DNA of 64,000 nt. It comes from Tigriopus japonicus. Lineage: Eukaryota; Arthropoda; Copepoda; Harpacticoida; Harpacticidae. The stretch lies in contig CM021318.1 of the NCBI GenBank assembly GCA_010645155.1, positions 6,409,481 to 6,473,480 on the forward strand, written 5' to 3'. The position numbers and the translations under genes are program-made. Shown here in pieces: positions 39,243-61,996 of the stretch. The stretch's first letter is position 1; every line of letters begins with the position of its first letter. A model generated the notes under the pieces. The model was not told the DNA's origin, did not search any database, and saw only the letters and a program-made list of their open reading frames with translations.

Positions 39243-40276
39243 ATGGTAAGAGCAGAACTGTGTTTGTTAACTATAAAAAACGGATGCATTGCAATGGGAA
39301 CCAATAATATCTTTTGCAGATTAGCTCCAACTTTTTGGCCTTTGGGTTGATCCTCTTGTTGGTAGCGCCTTTCAATGAGGCGTTCTTTAACAAGGGCGGT
39401 GGTCGTCGTCGTCCCCGCATCCATTGCACTACTCACTATGAGACCACATATGTGACCACTTACGAGACCATCTACAAGCCTGAGTGCTCCACCACTTATG
39501 AGAATGAGTGTTCCACCACTTACAAGACCGAGTATGAAACCACTTACGAGCAGCAATGCAGTACCTCATACTCAAACGAATGTAACACCGTTTACGATAC
39601 GTCCTACAAATCGGAATGCGATACCAAATACGTCCAGCAATGTTCCCCAACAACCAGCACCGTCTATGAGCAACAATGCGTGACCAGCTCTAAAACGGTG
39701 TGTGACCAATCAGGAGGAGGTGGCGGTGGAGGAGGAGGTGGATCCGGCTATGATGCCCCTTATTATCAATCAAGCTACGGTGCCCCGCAAACGCCCGTGT
39801 GCCACTCCGTGCCAACTCAATCTTGTAAACAAGTCCCCAAGCAAGTTCATAAGCAATCCTGCTCCAGCGTTCCCAAACAAGAATGTCGTCAAGTGCCCGT
39901 CCAGGTGCCTAAGCAATCTTGCAAGCAAGTGCCCAAGCAGAATTGTCAACAGGTGCCCAAACAAGTTCCTAAGCAAGTGCCCGTTCAATCTTGTCATGAG
40001 GTGCCCAGAGAATCTTGTCATGACGTGGCTGTTCAGGTGCCCAAACAAGTGCCCCAACAGACCCCTCGGCAAATCTGCAGTGGATATGGCAGTGGCGGCG
40101 GGGGCGGCAAAGGTGGTTTTGGAGGAGGCGGTAAAGGTGGTTTTGGAGGCGGAGGCAAAGGAGGATTTGGAGGAGGTGGTGGACATGGTGGTGGACATGG
40201 AGGCGGTGGTGGTGGCGGATATGGCCACAGCAGCGGAGGCTATGGTCCTCCTTCCTATGGTTATGGTCACAAGTAA
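39243..40276 (+). CDS. Secreted tetrad-repeat protein, paralogue 1
   Basis: Exon 1 contributes only the ATG (39243-39245). A 74-nt GT-AG intron follows, and exon 2 (39320-40276) encodes the rest; 319 residues. Residues 1-22 are a signal peptide. Residues 34-129 are 24 tetrads ending in Tyr or Cys (e.g. ETTY, EQQC), with nine Cys. Residues 130-158 are a Gly/Tyr linker. Residues 159-254 are 24 tetrads ending in Cys or VP (e.g. KQVP, KQSC), also with nine Cys. Residues 255-319 are a Gly-rich tail with KGGFGGGG repeats. The Cys spacing of the second domain mirrors the first exactly. I know no named family; a secreted structural, cuticular or adhesive protein is the best inference. The frame opening at a TTG at 39314 is not the true start; the splice acceptor TTTTGCAG lies there. 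Confidence 0.92.
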
Positions 40277-42290: not shown

Positions 42291-42764
42291 TGCTTATGAG
42301 GGTTCCAAGTTCTAGAGCTGTGCATCAGATCCGACCGGTCCCCAAAATTCAATCAGAACCTGACTTTCATAATCCGAATCCGAATCCGAATCCAACATCT
42401 TCCAATCAATCCGACAGCATCCGAATCCGAAAATTTGCTGCTCAATCCTAACGAATCCAAATCCAAAAATTTGTTGCCCAATCTGAACGAATCCGAATCC
42501 AAAAATTTGTTGCCCAATCTGATGAAATCCGAATCCGACAGCCTCAAATTAATTCGAACTAATCCGATTCCGAAAATTTGCTGCCCAATCTGAAAGAATC
42601 TGAATCCAAAAATTTGGCGCTTAATCCGAAAAAATCCGAAAATTTGTAGGTAAATCCGACATTAATGCGAAAATTTTCGCTCAATCTGACTTGATTCTGA
42701 TTACTTTTTTTGGCCTATATTGGAAGAACCATCACTATTTCAACTTAAGTAGATGACTAGTAGG

Positions 42765-43267: not shown

Positions 43268-44857
43268 TAGGGACAGGGGTTTTAGACGAATAAAACAGTA
43301 AAAACAAACGAAAAAAGACGCTGAGAATTGCCTGATTAGACGAAAAAGACGAACAGAATTGACCAATTAAACGAATAAAAAACGAATAAAAGTTCACATA
43401 AGACAAAAAAACGAAAAAAAAATGCTTATAAGACGCAAAAATTGAACCAAATGGATTTCCCAAAAGGGCAAATGAAACGGTTTGACAAGAAGGAAAACAA
43501 CTTAAGTGCCCGTACAACCCACACCCAAGTGACAACTACACTATACAAGTGGGCACCATTCGCGCAAAGCGCGAGCCCTTAGCATGGACAAGTGGCCACC
43601 ATTCGCACAAACCGCGATTCCATAGCATACAAGTGGCCAACATTCGCTCAATGCATAACCCCCTTAGAATGGACAAGTGGCCACTATTTACGCAAAGCGC
43701 CACCCCTCAACATGGACAAGTGGCCCCAATTCGCGCAAAGCGCGACCCCTTAACATGGACAAGTGGCCACCATTCGCGCAAAGTGCGACCCTTTACCAGT
43801 GGCAAGTGGCCACCATTCGCGCAAAGCACGACCCTTAAACAGTGACAAGTGGCCACCATTCCTTCAAGGCGGGCCCTGTACCACGGACAACTTTCCACTC
43901 TTTGGACCCGGTCCGCGGCTTCCACAGGCTCAGGAGACAAAAACCGTTTTTACAACTCATACTCGGAATTTTTTTTGCAATAATATGGCTAAACCATTTT
44001 TTCTTGAAATTTTTTTCACCGACACACTTGGCGCAAAGCGCCACATCCATTGGTGCGAAGAGCCACCGCTGGGGCCTAGATGGCGAAGCCAGCTAGTAAG
44101 ACGTAAAAGTCGAACCAAATCGATGCCCCAAAAGGCAAATGAAACTATTTTATAAGAAAGAAGACGAATGAAGTGCCCGTACAGACAAAAAAAGACTTTT
44201 GAAACTGCATCCACAGACTAGATGATACCGGGGAAAAATCTGTCTGCTTTTGCAAGAACGGCGAAATCTAGAAAATTTTAAAAGGAAAGTAATTGATCGG
44301 CAAAAGATTTTTTGTAGTACATATGCCAAATAAAAACCAATAGTTCAAAACTGCCTCTTTTTAAGGCGTGTTTTCTGTTGAGCTGAAGTCAGATCTGCAG
44401 ATACATTGATTGTTCTCATAACCAGAAAGCTTTTTCAACCCAAAGGTAATCTTTTCTTTCTGTGTCTGTTGAGCAACACTACTAGTGCAAGTTAATTTTT
44501 AAGTGCGGATTGTATTTTGTTGATGCAAAACCGCAACTGACAATCATACTATTACTTTGGCTTAAGCTTTGGCGTTGAACTTTCTTTGAAGTTATCATTT
44601 GCTTGAAAAAATGAAAACAACGCTTAAAGAGCTTGAAATCCAAGCAAACCCAAGTTTTTGGCCCATCAAACGAGTAAAGACGAATAAAATTGCCTGATTA
44701 GATGAAAGAGACGAATGAAATCCAAATAAGAAGTAAAAAATTTCGCGACAAATGAAGGTAAAAAAGACCAAAAAATTAAAAAAAAAAATGAATAAGTTTA
44801 TTCGTCTTTATAAGTTCGTTTAGACGTCGTTAAGACGTTTACAGGTTCTTGCCCCTA
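43268..44857. mobile_element. hAT-like element, family D copy 1 (GACGAATAAA arrays)
   Basis: Termini TAGGGACAGGGGTTTTAGAC and GGTTCTTGCCCCTA; flanks GTAATAAC (43260-43267) and AAAATAAC (44858-44865) agree at 6 of 8 positions. Subterminal arrays of GACGAATAAA occur on both sides. The centre holds a 43-bp minisatellite bracketed by a direct repeat of about 87 bp (43426-43515 and 44098-44184, both ending AAGTGCCCGTACA). Inserted within element H. No transposase. Confidence 0.8.
43545..43885. repeat. 43-bp minisatellite inside element D
   Basis: Eight units of 41-44 bp beginning CAAGTGGCCACCATTCGC, each with an internal GCGCAAAGCGCG near-palindrome. The unit length is not a multiple of three and the long frames across it on both strands are artefacts. 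Confidence 0.9.
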
Positions 44858-52781: not shown

Positions 52782-54079
52782 ATGGTAAGACATGAACTCA
52801 ATCTCTTTCTCAAGGTCTTGGACTCTATTCAATGTTCTTCATTTGGTGCGCTAATTGAATTTGAACAATTGAATGGAAACTTTGTACAAAGTTTGATTGA
52901 TTGATTGAGTTGTCTCGTGCAGGAATCATTTACGAATCGTGACATTTAAGAGGAACTGTTAGCTATAAAATTGATTTAACTCAAGCTATCCCATGCTTTA
53001 CAACACTTTACAACAATTTTATCACTATGGAAAAGTTCAGACTGACATTCCAGGGAAAAACTGACCAGAATCTGTTTTTGCCAATCTGACATTTTTCCTA
53101 GCATTTCCAACTTGTTTCGTCGGAAACTTAACAACATAACCTTATCTAGAGGGACGTTGGTCAAGGTTTCAAAAATAAAGTACGGTATTTTTTGTTTCCT
53201 TTATAGATAAGCTTAAAACCTTTGATTTTTGGGCTTGTTCTCTTCTCATGGGCGCCTTTCAATGAAGCCTTGTTCAACAAGGGTGGTGGCCGCAGCCGTC
53301 CTCGTGTCCATTGTACAACTCACTATGAAACCACATACGTGACCATTTATGAGACCATCTACCAGCCAAAATGTTCAACCACTTATGAGGATAAGTGCTC
53401 CACCACTTATGAGACAGAGTATGAGACCACTTATGAGCAGCAATGCAGTCTCTCTTACTCTAACGAATGCAACACGGTTTACGACACCTCTTACAAATCT
53501 GAATGTGAGACCAAGTACATCCAAAAGTGTACGCCTACCACTAATACTGTCTATGAAGAGCAATGCCTCACAAGCTCCAAAACTGTATGCGACCAATCTG
53601 GTGGGGGCGGTGGGGGATCAGGATATGACGACCCTTACTCTTACGAATCAAGCTATGGTGCTCCCCAAAAGCCCGTGTGCCGGTCCATCCCAACTCAATC
53701 CTGCAAACAGGTCCCCAAGCAAGTTCACCAACAATCCTGTTCCAATGTTCCTCAACAGGATTGTCATCAGGTGCCCGTCCAGGTGCCCAGACAAGAATGC
53801 AAGCAAGTGCCCCATCAAAACTGTCAACAGGTTCCCAAACAAGTTCCCAAGCAAGTGCCCCGGCAATCTTGCCGAAAGGTGCCCAGGGAATCTTGTCATG
53901 ACATAGCTGTTCAGGTGCCCAAACAAGTGCCCCAGCAGACCCCTAGGCAAATCTGCAGCGGATATGGCAGTGGCGGTGGAGGCGGCAAAGGTGGTTTTGG
54001 AGGCGGAAAGGGATTCGGGGGAGGCAGTGGGGGTGGCGGTGGATATGGTCCTCCTCCCTATGGTTATGGTTACCATTGA
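52782..54079 (+). CDS. Secreted tetrad-repeat protein, paralogue 2
   Basis: Exon 1 supplies only ATG (52782-52784). A 422-nt intron with donor GTAAGA and acceptor TTTATAG follows, then exon 2 (53207-54079); 291 residues. Layout equals paralogue 1: signal peptide 1-22, Tyr/Cys tetrads 34-129, Gly/Tyr linker 130-155, VP/Cys tetrads 156-251, Gly-rich tail 252-291. Every cysteine is conserved in position, while linker and tail are shorter by 3 and 25 residues. So the two 96-residue domains are held fixed and the Gly-rich parts vary. Family unknown to me; probably an extracellular structural protein. It is 13 kb downstream of paralogue 1, on the same strand, with transposons between. Confidence 0.92.
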
Positions 54080-57458: not shown

Positions 57459-57615
57459 GAAAAATCTCTTTATATCATATATGCGTGCTTATTGTTATCT
57501 CGCAACTTTGGACGACTTTGATCACGCAACTTATCCAATTACAAAATGACGAGTAAGAATTACCTGCAATGCCAAACATAAATACATTGCCTGCCTAAGT
57601 GTTCTCAGTTACAAT

Positions 57616-59375
57616 ATGATGAAGGCATGGGATGGTCTCACATTCCCATTGGTGATACTGTTTTTCTTGATTGATGTTTCTGGAGTGTTGTCGACAGATT
57701 TTTGTGAAGCTGACAGTTGTGCCTCTGAAGAAACACAATGTGAACATTTTAATCCACTTACATTTTCTCCATCAAATCAATCTATATTCCTTGTGGCTGC
57801 CAAAGGCAGACTTGGAAACCATCTAATTGCTCATGCGCTTTCAATATCTATTGATAAAGCTATCGGTATCAAGCCATACCTTTCCCAAGAGACTCATGAT
57901 TTCTTGTCACAATATTTTGAGGACATTCAAGTGCCAATTTTGCAGGATAAATTCTGTAATTGGAACGAAATCAACTTCAAAGTGTTTAATAAAGGAGTTG
58001 AGGATCTCATAAGTAATCCAACCTTAAGAAAAGGTCATCTTCTGGATCTGTGGTCAACTGGTTACATGGTAGGGTGACTAAATTGTGCAATTCTAAAACT
58101 TGATAAAAATTTCCCCAACCTATATTTCAGACAGATGCTACTGTGTGTTGTCCTGCTCAAGAAATGTTCCATTTCTTCAATCAAAATGGCCTTTCCTCGA
58201 TTCGCCAAAATCTCAGGTTCAGGCCAAAGTTTAAAGATTACGCAAATGATTTCAAGATGCGAGCCGCAGCCAAAAAAAATATTCCCGTGAACAAAATCAC
58301 ATTTATAGGCGTTCATAATCGTCGAACAGTAAGATCAAAAGCCAATTCCATAAAAGAATATGCACTGTTACCTTCTATGCTAATTTTTATTTTAGGATTA
58401 CATTCCTTACATGCAGAAGATGTTCAAGATGGAGAACCCATACAACAAGAAATTTTTCTATCATGCAATGGAATATTTTCGAGAGGAATATGACAACGTA
58501 GTGTTCTTTTTCGTGTCAGATGATATGGAATGGGGGAGGAAAAATATAAAGAACAAACATAAAGATCTCTATTTTGTGGGTAAGTTTTCGCTCCAAGAAC
58601 TTTTTTTATGATCACAAAATTGGTTGAAATAGGAAATTTGAATAAATATAATAAAAAAAATTACGAAAAATGTAAAAAAAATGATGTTTTCCAAACATGA
58701 TGAACGAAGTTATTAAACCATGTGATTAAGAAGTTTACACACCTACAAAAGATGAACAATATGAATAATATAAAACAGATGTCTAAACATATTTTTGAAC
58801 AAAAAACAGATGATAAATGGAGTTCAGACCATTAGAGGAAAAAGATTATAAAAGCATTAAATCAAAACATTAGCCCGATAAAAGTGATAGGAGGAATCTT
58901 AAAATTGATTGAGCACGTTCATTAAATTGTAACTCTCAAATCATGGACCAACATTGTTTTTAAACATACAATTTAGAAAATGTGCCTAAAAGTGGTGAAT
59001 ATTGAATTGAGTGAAAAATATAATTCAAAGTAGTAGAAGTAAAACCACTCTTGAAAATATCCAGTTTGTCAAGACAAAGTGTTTTATGAGTATTTTTGTC
59101 CTTATAGAATAATGTTCATTTAAATAAAATCGACCAAGAACTAAATACGACTCTTTAATCAAATTTTTACAGGGCAAGGCGATACTGATTCCCCCGATGC
59201 AATTGGATATGACTTGGCTTTACTTGCTTCATGCAACCACACAATCATCACTTGGGGATCATTCTCTATGTGGGCTTCCATACTAAGTGGTGGAGAATAT
59301 TACTCAGAATATGGTGTGATTGTTCCCGGAGATATCCAATATCCAGAGAAGAAAAGGAAGAAATTCCGACACTAA
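57616..59375 (+). CDS. GT11 family fucosyltransferase (alpha-1,2-type)
   Basis: Four exons, 57616-58068, 58131-58328, 58396-58579 and 59173-59375, join in frame to 345 residues, the usual size for the family. All introns are GT-AG. An N-terminal hydrophobic stretch (about residues 8-25) suits a type II Golgi membrane protein. Motifs: GRLGNHL at 64-70, the GDP-fucose-binding HNRRTDY at 213-219 (HxRRxDY), VSDDMEWGRK, and GQGDTDSPDAIGYDLALL, followed by TIITWGSFSMWASIL near the C-terminus. The family transfers fucose from GDP-fucose to glycans, classically alpha-1,2 to galactose; the acceptor here is unknown. HNRRTDY has Asn where vertebrate FUT1/2 have Val. The next gene starts 105 bp downstream on the same strand. 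Confidence 0.93.
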
Positions 59376-59399: not shown

Positions 59400-59480
59400 A
59401 ATAAAAACAAAGTACTTAGTTTCACGCAACCTCTTCAAAGACCTGAGGGTTACTCATGATTTTTTTACTTTAGTGCAAAA
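59400..59480 (+). promoter_or_regulatory. Operon-like junction: poly(A) signal then splice acceptor
   Basis: AATAAA at 59400-59405 lies 25 nt after the GT11 stop. The pyrimidine-rich TTTTTTTACTTTAG ends at 59473, only 7 nt before the sulfotransferase ATG (59481). The acceptor could receive a spliced leader (polycistronic transcription) or a cis-spliced 5' UTR exon. No promoter motif is obvious in the 105 bp. Confidence 0.5.
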
Positions 59481-61996
59481 ATGACGGTATTTTCAATGGA
59501 TCAGTGGTTCCTTGATCTTGGAACTGTTTCACTCAAAAGAACGTGTCTTAGGTGTTTCACTTATGTTTTATTGGTGTTCAGTGTTTTAATATTAGTCATC
59601 AAGTCGTTGGAGTCGAACTATAACCAGTTTCAAGCCAGCAATAATCAAACGGACGAGAAAGACTACGAGTTTCTAAGACAGGAATTTCGCGCTAGAAATG
59701 AATATTTAAGCCAACAATGCCAAAAGTATCCTCATTTAATCCCTTTTAAGCCGTTAAATCAAGCTAAATTCTTTTACCTGAAACAACCGGATGTGATGGT
59801 TTGTATGATCCCCAAAGTTGCAAGTACATCACTGTCGTCATTTTTAATCCAATCCCACCAGCATTTTAAAACCCGTAAGATCTAGCATTTCTTTAACTTG
59901 AACTTGGGTTTCATTAATCTCTATGTGTGTGCAGATAATGGGTTGACCAACATTGGATTTCCAACGGGGAGTTTAAATGACTCCTTTCACGATACCTACA
60001 AAATCATGGTAGTTAGACATCCGTTAGAGAGACTTCTCTCAGCGTACCTCTACATTTTTGTCAAAGAAGTCCGAGGTAAGTGTTTTGGATCAAAGACTGT
60101 AACACTTTGGTTAAAACTTATCAATAGATGAGTAATATTATATATATCATATTATAAACAATACCAACTTGAATACTCTTGGTTAAACCAAGGATGACTT
60201 AAACCAGGATTACTTTCAAAATGCACACTGAGTCCGATTAGTGCAATGAAAATTCAACGGAAAAACATATTTGTTGCAAAAACCCTCACATTTTAGTACA
60301 ATGATTGGACCCAGCGTGTATTTTTGAAATTCGTCCTGAAGAACAGTGGCTCTTAGTTAAACAAGTACTACAAGGAAACTAAATTTCACTTGGGGTCGTC
60401 TGAGAAGCCTGAGAACCTTAAAAAGACCCAAAAGAGGAGATCTCTAAATACAAAACATATGACCTATAAGTGGTGAAACTTATTATCATCCCTTGTAAAA
60501 ATGATTTGGTCGGCAAACATAATTCAAAGATGGGGAATTTCCACTTCTTTCAGATGACTTGAAACACACCAATATGTATTCTAATTTGACTCATCTGTTA
60601 GCCACTCATTATCGGGGATCTCATTCATGGGATGAAAATCCCCTCCTCACATTTCCTGAGTTTGTCAGATTTGTCGTCAATGGAACCAAGGAACACATTC
60701 AAGGTACAGTTTAAAGGTACATTTTAGTTATAAGTGGTCAATGCTACTAATAATGTGGCATTATTTCACAAGTGGGCGAAAACCGGTGTCGGTGTCGAGG
60801 GGTCGACACTGACTTTTCCGGTTTGCAGTGTCAGTGTCGACACCTTTCAGGTTTCGGGATTTTTTTCAAATTAAAAAAAAAATACTACAGTAACACTTTC
60901 ACTGCCAGTGTCGGTGTCAGTGTCAATGTCGACTTTGATGATTCGGCCAGTATCGGTGTCGGCGTCGGTGCCAAAAATGCCGTTGTAACGCATCCCTAGT
61001 CAATGCTTCAAATTTTCTTGTTAGCCCTGTTGGGTCAGAGCAAGGATCACTAAACACCTGGATGCCTCGGCTACCGGCAAAAGCCATTTTTTCGAATTTT
61101 GTGTTAGACAGAGAAAAATCTTATCAAACCAAGTGTTTGATTGGTAATGCAAAGCTCACATGCTTAATTTCAACTTGATCGACTGAAACTTGTGGCAGTT
61201 AGAGTAATTTGAAACGTAGAGCATAGCGCGCTCTTCCGACCGAACATTTGCACCTACAATCGTCCAAAAGGACGATTGTAGGGTCAATTTTTCTCTCGTT
61301 TCCGTGCGTATGTATTGCGACTGTAGCAAATTTAGAAACGTTGTTTCTCGTGGATGCAGTAATGTACCATGCTGAAATTCAGCAAACGACATCCCTATAT
61401 GATTGTTTAATCATTCTTATCAAAACAAAGTCATTTACTTGAATGGAATTCGATTTATAAAAAATCCACAACTGAACGCTTGAGCGGAGGCTTCCATGTC
61501 TTACGATTTCCTTGGTCAGAGTGACAGACGTTCACTTTTTTTCAGGTTCATGGGACGGATTATCGGATGGAGGGTTTGTGTTTCATCCAAATTTAAACTC
61601 TCATTGGGAACCTTATTGGAAGATATGCAGCCCATGTCAGACCATGAACCATCCCAACATTATTCTTAAGTTGGGCAAAAACTTCAATCACGAGGCAAGG
61701 CACTTAATTAGTAATTAAGCTTAAGAAAAAGCTTAAATTGTTTTAACTGTTAACTTCAGATCCAATATGCGTTCAAGGAGAGTGGAATTTTGGAACTGTT
61801 TGCTCAAAAGGTGCATCCAAAGTTCCAAGGAACACTTCAATGGAAGAATTCTGGCCACCGAACAGAACTATTGGAGCAATCTTACTTTTCTCAATTGTCC
61901 AAGGCCGAAGTTCTTCAACTATACCATGTCTACCAGATTGACCATAACCTCTTTGGATATGACATCGAGCCATATTTATCGTTTAGTCATGAATGA
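59481..61996 (+). CDS. HNK-1-family carbohydrate sulfotransferase
   Basis: Five exons, 59481-59874, 59935-60075, 60554-60703, 61546-61694 and 61760-61996, give 356 residues in frame. Intron 4 uses a GC donor (CACGAG|GCAAGG). A membrane anchor lies near residues 24-41 (type II, Golgi). PKVASTS (111-117) is the 5'-phosphosulfate loop and RHPLERLLSAY (159-169) the 3'-phosphate-binding motif of the Sulfotransfer_2 (CHST8-14) family. HWEPYWKICSPC and a C-terminal QLYHVYQIDHNLFGYD are also family hallmarks. These enzymes move sulfate from PAPS to sugars such as GalNAc or glucuronate; the substrate here cannot be told. Introns 2 and 3 carry MITEs. The family usually has RDP where this has RHP. Confidence 0.93.
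60207..60338. mobile_element. MITE, family P copy 2, in a sulfotransferase intron
   Basis: Palindromic, ends GGATTACTTTCAAAATGC and its partner TTTTTGAAATTCGTCC. Reverse complement aligns with 2151-2284 across most of its length. It is located in intron 2. Confidence 0.6.
60745..60998. mobile_element. hAT-like element, family J (GGTGTC arrays), intronic
   Basis: 254 bp flanked by a perfect 8-bp duplication, GTCAATGC (60737-60744 and 60999-61006). The right end is GTTGTAACGCATCCCTA; the left end (TACTAATAATG) has diverged. The interior is made of GTGTCGGTGTCG and its complement on both sides. It lies in sulfotransferase intron 3, at least 40 bp from the nearest exon. Confidence 0.82.

Follow-up and report, generated by a model that had tools for sequence, protein, structure and literature searches.

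Mirrored cysteine spacing suggests long, disulfide-zipped two-stranded beta ribbons in copepods and predatory bacteria

In a 64,000-nucleotide stretch of Tigriopus japonicus DNA (the window) we analysed W1, the gene at 39243-40276, and its relatives. The two arms of the W1 protein are very probably the strands of one very long antiparallel beta hairpin. The family as a whole probably represents an undescribed architecture, present in copepods and predatory Bdellovibrionota, of giant disulfide-zipped two-stranded beta ribbons which obey a residue pairing code, evolve their arm lengths and rungs in matched pairs, would form stalks measuring from tens of nanometres up to perhaps 200, and also occur as metalloprotease and amine oxidase fusions. 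An earlier note, made from the DNA letters, had proposed that the two domains of W1 pair in antiparallel fashion, and spacing covariation, a rule of proline placement, a charge diagonal and an AlphaFold2 model all support that proposal.

The W1 product is 319 amino acids long (stop excluded) and is presumably secreted (Table 1). When we re-derived both arms from the translated sequence, each again divided without a gap into 24 tetrads, and a recount matched the earlier one exactly, with Cys ending tetrads 1, 6, 8, 12, 14, 17, 19, 22 and 24 of the first arm and 1, 3, 6, 8, 11, 13, 17, 19 and 24 of the second. Tetrads of arm 1 mostly end in Tyr or Cys and those of arm 2 mostly in Pro or Cys, two second-arm tetrads ending in H and A. 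The exact mirror of Cys spacing likewise holds, as all nine pairs (18 Cys) give i+j=291; the predicted bonds are 37-254, 57-234, 65-226, 81-210 and 89-202, followed by 101-190, 109-182, 121-170 and 129-162. The odd tetrads SPTT and KQVH also stand opposite each other in this register. A tandem repeat (40103-40176) lies inside the tail, and no Pfam family scored above the curated cut-off for W1.

Table 1. Parts of W1 and position of its tandem paralogue W2 (window coordinates)
Feature	Position	Strand	Basis or remark
W1 exon 1, start codon alone	39243..39245	+	ATG, then GTAAGA donor
W1 intron, phase 0, GT..AG, 74 bases	39246..39319	+	TTTTGCAG acceptor precedes ATTAGC
W1 exon 2, remaining coding sequence and TAA	39320..40276	+	open frame
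W1 likely signal peptide, residues 1-22	39243..39382, intron within span	+	inferred from hydrophobic run
W1 first arm, residues 34-129 (24 tetrads, 9 Cys, Tyr-ending tetrads)	39416..39703	+	sequence, model strand
W1 Gly-rich linker, predicted hairpin loop, residues 130-158	39704..39790	+	sequence; low model pLDDT
W1 second arm, residues 159-254 (24 tetrads, 9 Cys, Pro-ending VP tetrads)	39791..40078	+	sequence, model strand
W1 nine predicted Cys-Cys rungs	39425..40078	+	i+j=291 for each; bonds inferred
W1 Gly-rich tail, residues 255-319 (GGGKGGF repeats, Tyr-rich end)	40079..40273	+	sequence
W2 main exon	53207..54079	+	84% identity to W1; arms within 53306-53956

The earlier note had set the W1 mirror against 840 possible orders of its gaps. 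The count itself is right but, for W1 alone, the odds drawn from it are overstated: 840 assumes that any order is possible and, because every other gap is 8 residues long, the odds are about 1 in 24 (12 orders of 12, 12, 16 and 20 multiplied by two phases, by our own arithmetic). The Cys spacing of W2 equals that of W1 and hence adds little to these odds. Differences between the two genes are mostly silent, with dN/dS of about 0.03 in arm 1 (dS 2.06, which is near saturation, and dN 0.071) and 0.17 in arm 2 (dS 0.55, dN 0.095), and the protein is therefore under constraint. A DNA-level palindrome was rejected as the cause of the mirror, since the domain pair (39416-40078) holds no inverted repeat of 14 or more bases, which also speaks against the duplication history considered below. 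Two tandem arrays lie between W1 and W2, one of a 43-base unit in 7.4 copies (43545-43861) and one of a 36-base unit (42407-42640), and open frames at 57550-58077 and 59460-59885 resemble single exons of other genes and have no Pfam match.

The W1 mirror is beyond chance only when the family is taken in. A search of the genome (195 Mb, 158 contigs; the window is on contig C4) gave 62 matches, the best candidates of which were scored, and 21 genes were read, namely W1, W2 and 19 fetched regions (L031-L049). In 14 of the 21, a count that leaves L039, L040, L047 and L049 unassembled and L048 incomplete, Cys spacing is mirrored along the whole shorter arm, the outermost cap Cys of L031, L035, L038 and L043 apart. 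Mirrored Cys pairs number nine in W1, W2, L033, L036, L037, L042 and L046, 11 in L041, 22 in L045, 27 in L038, 34 in L031, 35 in L035, 42 in L032 and 73 in L043. Counted from the linker towards the arm ends, the unbroken series of matching gaps is 72 long in L043, 41 in L032, 34 in L035, 33 in L031, 26 in L038 and 21 in L045. Read by itself, at its reduced odds given gap alternation, W1 could still be taken as a low-complexity protein whose pattern arose by chance or was picked out post hoc. The gaps of L043 and L031 have 6.7e11 and 1.4e12 possible orders, respectively, other residues covary as well, and the family-wide mirror rules this explanation out, leaving it a negligible probability. 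L034 matches in 5/5 gaps of the exon read, and L044 is mirrored in its outer part only. An intron splits the last arm-2 gap of L036, L037 and L042; the mirror predicted 20 residues for this gap, and reading on into the following exon showed that length exactly in all three. The L037 domain is, by eye, nearly identical to Tigriopus californicus TCAL_12911 (P0005). The arm ends of L035, L038 and L043 carry a recurrent cap, in which spacings of 4 and 6 are followed by outer gaps of 12 or 13 on arm 1 against 3 on arm 2; bacterial arm ends have cap gaps of 11 or 12 against 13.

The earlier note had suggested looking in relatives for covariation of Cys at mirror positions, and this is what we find: spacings differ between relatives and shift on both arms together. 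Outward from the linker, both arms read 8,12,8,12,8,16,8,20 in W1, 8,16,8,12,8,16,8,20 in L033, 8,16,8,12,8,12,8,16,8,20 in L041 and 8,16,8,12,8,16,8,12 in P0016. Both arms of P0067 interrupt a run of 8 with a 6, and both arms of L045 contain a 4. In the small GYGYD subfamily, the two arms each read 8,12,20,16 in P0002, 8,12,16,16 in P0014 and P0017, 8,20,16 in P0037 and 8,12,16 in P0050. Among 29 proteins with 29 distinct spacings, arm 1 fits a foreign arm 2 exactly in 0/812 combinations, although lengths also differ between proteins. The own-pair score of 29/29 follows from the procedure itself, which retained nothing but the matched run, and the zero count of Cys facing another residue is likewise built in; what informs is the reach of the runs, the 0/812, the proline rule and the charge test. 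In P0067 and P0056 alike, the 6-residue gap of one arm is matched by a 6-residue gap at the mirror position of the other. The Cys spacing of P0112 is a nearly nested palindrome, perhaps of four strands in series, with 14,8,16,16,16,8,6, then 46, then 6,8,22,8,6, then 27, then 6,8,22,8,6, then 49 and finally 6,8,16,16,16,8,15.

C-x7-C modules are repeated inside each arm, a recurrence that would suit a different reading, in which each arm is a separate disulfide domain whose bonds join adjacent Cys, eight residues from each other, and in which the mirror is a record of duplication history. That reading leaves the exact mirror order in many spacings unexplained, as it does the odd gaps of 4, 6, 7, 9 and 10 residues that are mirrored at the same place; the odd Cys counts per arm (9, 73) and the proline swaps described below also tell against it, and we consider it highly improbable.

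Parallel (same-order) pairing of the arms was rejected, as none of the 29 matched runs is identical in a parallel reading. A shifted parallel fit still places 8/9 Cys in L033, L036, L037 and L042 and 10/11 in L041, and because it is nearly complete these members alone cannot settle orientation; the same fit places 6/9 in W1 and W2, 3/5 in P0002, 20/34 in L031, 30/42 in L032, 24/35 in L035 and 48/73 in L043. In the shift control, Cys:Cys rungs make up 251/584 in the true register, 3/572 at a shift of +/-4 residues and 175/560 at +/-8.

Residues other than Cys also covary across the rungs. The 584 rungs, taken from 12 proteins, comprise the 251 Cys:Cys pairs and 333 other tetrad-end pairs, mostly Tyr:Pro (140) or Asn:Pro (90). 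In 15 non-redundant proteins we counted 376 non-Cys rungs, 69 of them without any Pro; where Pro is on arm 1 (20 rungs), Pro faces Pro in 0/20 against 13.5 expected, the minimum in 20,000 within-protein shuffles being 5. Six of the 15 proteins lay outside the first proline test and gave Pro:Pro in 0/9 against 4.5 expected (p 0.001), two of these six (P0016 and P0067) having been inspected by eye beforehand. Pro can change sides, as when RNVP stands opposite STVQ in L043, SQVP opposite KTTY in L035, RSVP opposite REEY in P0067 and QQVP opposite KDVY in L034. W1 shows both marks of the paired-arm family: its Cys spacing is mirrored, and none of its non-Cys rungs holds more than one Pro.

Charge was examined in nine proteins at eleven even offsets and three positions (33 combinations), with shuffles confined to classes of equal rung context. 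Covariation stands far out at diagonal K+2, position 1:1, with an observed value of -224 against -150.8 (sd 7.7) and a z of -9.5, where the background reaches about |z| 3.8; paralogues and repeats lack independence, so the z values are not to be read as probabilities. The signal is negative in 9/9 proteins, weakly so in L037 (-0.4), P0002 (-1.3) and L033 (-1.4), and there is no charge signal at diagonal K-2. Position 2 does not rise above background (z -3.8 in the true register, -3.7 four residues off), and position 3 at K+2 exceeds it slightly (z -4.5). A one-sided charge diagonal would be the expectation from the twist of an antiparallel ribbon.

Structure prediction, one of the checks that the earlier note had named, gave two paired 93-residue strands in the Cys register. 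The AlphaFold2 model of W1 (mc73cf54436ad; residues 34-254, with a shallow alignment of 13 sequences) has strands at model residues 5-97 (residues 38-130) and 128-220 (residues 161-253), and the strand ends sum to 225, which is the Cys register (291-66). pLDDT is at least 90 in 120/221 residues and 70-90 in a further 69, falls below 50 in the loop (model residues 99-111 and 113-124), and pTM is low at 0.30. A model of the bacterial protein P0155, also built on a shallow alignment (10 sequences), has strands at 52-174 and 181-305 and a low pTM of 0.45; the inner strand ends sum to 355, again the Cys register, and the outer ends to 357. pLDDT in its ladder drops to about 50-60 near mid-arm, and the outermost Cys of arm 1 stands opposite a partner that is one residue off.

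The mirror and the covariation, taken alone, fit pairing within one chain and pairing between chains equally, such that arm 1 could zip to arm 2 of another chain to form antiparallel dimers or long polymers. Long loops between the inner Cys, of 33 residues in W1 and 104 in L043, would suit such interchain pairing. In some relatives, among them L033, P0002 and L052, the inner Cys lie as little as 5 or 9 residues apart, which favours a turn, and both models, which were computed as monomers only, fold as a single chain; we regard interchain pairing as unlikely. Our preferred reading remains the single-chain hairpin, with its Cys rungs probably oxidised and paired within the chain.

Could the long hairpin instead be a membrane-inserting stem, as in beta-barrel pore formers? 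Lysenin, epsilon toxin, aerolysin and phage tail proteins contain long hairpins, and structures of these proteins are among the nearest Foldseek entries to the W1 model in the PDB. What the W1 model has in common with them is a long two-stranded hairpin element; none of the 50 matches listed, out of 137, exceeds a TM of 0.20, and on this measure W1 has no structural match that would place it among pore-forming stems. T, E, K and Q are abundant in both arms, and we know of no disulfide ladder in beta pore formers, so that a pore stem has very little probability. By sequence, the best 60 of 172 PDB matches to W1 include no convincing relative by score (best E 0.0015, an ARID-domain protein, followed mostly by scFv chains); against the PDB, the three matches to A5 were weak (E 0.05-0.08) and lay around its C-terminal domain, and L045 gave none.

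The hairpin family extends beyond the T. japonicus genome. Of the 134 relatives detected with a profile, the best 120 were listed and include T. californicus, Tk06363 (which we take to be T. kingsejongensis), the transcriptome entry GFUD01126578 and many metagenome or merc entries. A search with L035 found at least 107 proteins, bacterial ones among them, named cases including Bacteriovorax sp. HI3 (P0171) and a Bdellovibrionales MAG (P0220); the link between copepod and bacterial proteins rests on this sequence search, in which repeats of like composition could score. P0171 has gaps of 9,9,10,9,10,8,9,10,8,9,10,8,9,10 on both arms, P0183 mirrors with gaps of 7 and 8 when read by hand, and P0155 has exactly one Pro in 10/10 eight-residue rungs. 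In 32 bacterial proteins, three so named and the rest assigned by similarity with close relatives included, Pro faces Pro in 2/201 eight-gap rungs against 21.9 expected (minimum 13 in 5,000 shuffles), and rungs without Pro number 49 against 68.9 expected. In the bacterial 10-residue intervals, Tyr stands opposite Pro at constant i+j in 26/38.

A genome scan gave nine loci (L050-L058), seven titled Bdellovibrionales, Bdellovibrio, Bacteriovoracaceae or Oligoflexia and the remaining two Nitrosovibrio and Proteobacteria. Eight of the nine mirror outward from the linker, and L057, read by hand with its middle gap as the loop, mirrors in 6/7 gaps. In the phylum of the L052 genome, a profile that includes the C-terminal domain matches 61/290 genomes. 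Among 15 further loci (L059-L073), several of which are the same places as earlier loci, 12 have mirrored runs of at least six gaps, L061 has two and L064 three matching gaps, and no Cys-rich frame was found in L063; Pro faces Pro in 0/61 of their eight-gap rungs. Bacterial members carry an extra C-terminal domain. Mirrored runs also occur beside enzyme domains, one of 8 gaps with a reprolysin-type metalloprotease domain in P0129 and one of 14 gaps with a flavin amine oxidase domain in P0131, where they perhaps serve as stalks; P0132 and P0148 are less clear cases. Pfam returned no family for P0005, P0006, P0171, P0155, P0134 or P0210, and in P0010 a Mucin-like match is confined to the tail (residues 375-440).

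The mirror has exceptions. The earlier note had named a one-sided Cys change in relatives as evidence against its proposal, and such changes do occur, in a number of merc sequences and in the third module of P0123 and P0125, where 6 stands against 8. Within the GYGYD subfamily, which is small, 17/23 sequences, all of them merc, are unmirrored (with unequal arms) or truncated, and 6/23 are consistent as far as the sequences reach (4/4 ENA contigs and 2/19 merc entries). These merc entries may be assembly chimaeras, since they have 5' ends in common but differ in their middles, and one of them seems to be permuted. P0012, P0013, P0034, P0036, P0049 and P0109 likewise lack an intact mirror, and P0091 is mirrored in its outer part only. 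An automatic test of proteins with at least 10 Cys, with 48 proteins below that number outside it, found a mirror in 32/74 and 68/104; many of the failures are short or cut sequences, and the test overlooks Cys-containing loops, P0133, P0158 and P0183 being mirrored when read by hand.

Theta-defensins, gomesin, protegrin and tachyplesin resemble the predicted ribbons in that facing Cys pairs join antiparallel strands on one face. Antimicrobial hairpins of this type are short peptides with a cystine ladder of two or three disulfides, whereas the copepod and bacterial family has 4 to 73 mirrored pairs, coevolving spacing, Pro rungs and a loop. The facing-Cys register of a cystine ladder is seen in W1, in 13 further genes and in the two models; a theta-defensin is an 18-residue cyclic peptide, and W1, at its length and with no Pfam match, falls outside that family. 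Keratin-associated and cuticle proteins are structural proteins of short repeats rich in Cys and Gly/Tyr, a composition they share with W1, and we know of no mirror order or arm-to-arm covariation in them.

We found no description of long coevolving cystine ladders in the open PMC library; neither PMC12750041 nor PMC12842719 appears to concern the W1 family. The earlier view that the design belongs to no described class thus holds in so far as no description was found, but W1 is not a single protein of its kind, its family being large and including bacteria.

These observations suggest the following model. Every tetrad of arm 1 would face one tetrad of arm 2 at constant i+j, and each rung would be either Cys:Cys (a presumed disulfide) or a non-Cys pair, usually with exactly one Pro, mostly against Tyr or Asn. 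Cys:Cys rungs would lie on one face of the two-stranded ribbon and salt bridges on the other, charged residues pairing along one diagonal, and Pro would interrupt one free edge at each non-Cys rung. Because a rung needs both arms to match, tetrads and Cys would be gained and lost pairwise, and spacing and residue type would coevolve in the manner of base pairs. Such a ribbon may be stiff and protease resistant, and that of W1 would be about 32 nm long if fully extended (96 residues x 0.33 nm); on the same arithmetic the long member L043, with 594 residues per arm, would reach roughly 200 nm at most. The Gly/Tyr-rich tail of W1 may anchor or cross-link the rod in a matrix such as cuticle, and in fusions to enzymes or to the bacterial C-terminal domain the ribbon may act as the stalk. 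An extracellular rod or stalk function is put forward tentatively, at slightly under even probability.

Coevolution normally shows up at individual residue positions. In this family it is the complete spacing patterns of the two arms that shift together, and the fold and the register of up to 73 rungs would be readable from a single sequence. The family may offer a clear test case for the evolution of matched insertions and, to materials research, a disulfide rod that occurs in nature and can be genetically encoded. Homology between the bacterial and copepod proteins would point to cross-domain transfer or to a very old design; without homology, they would represent a striking convergence.
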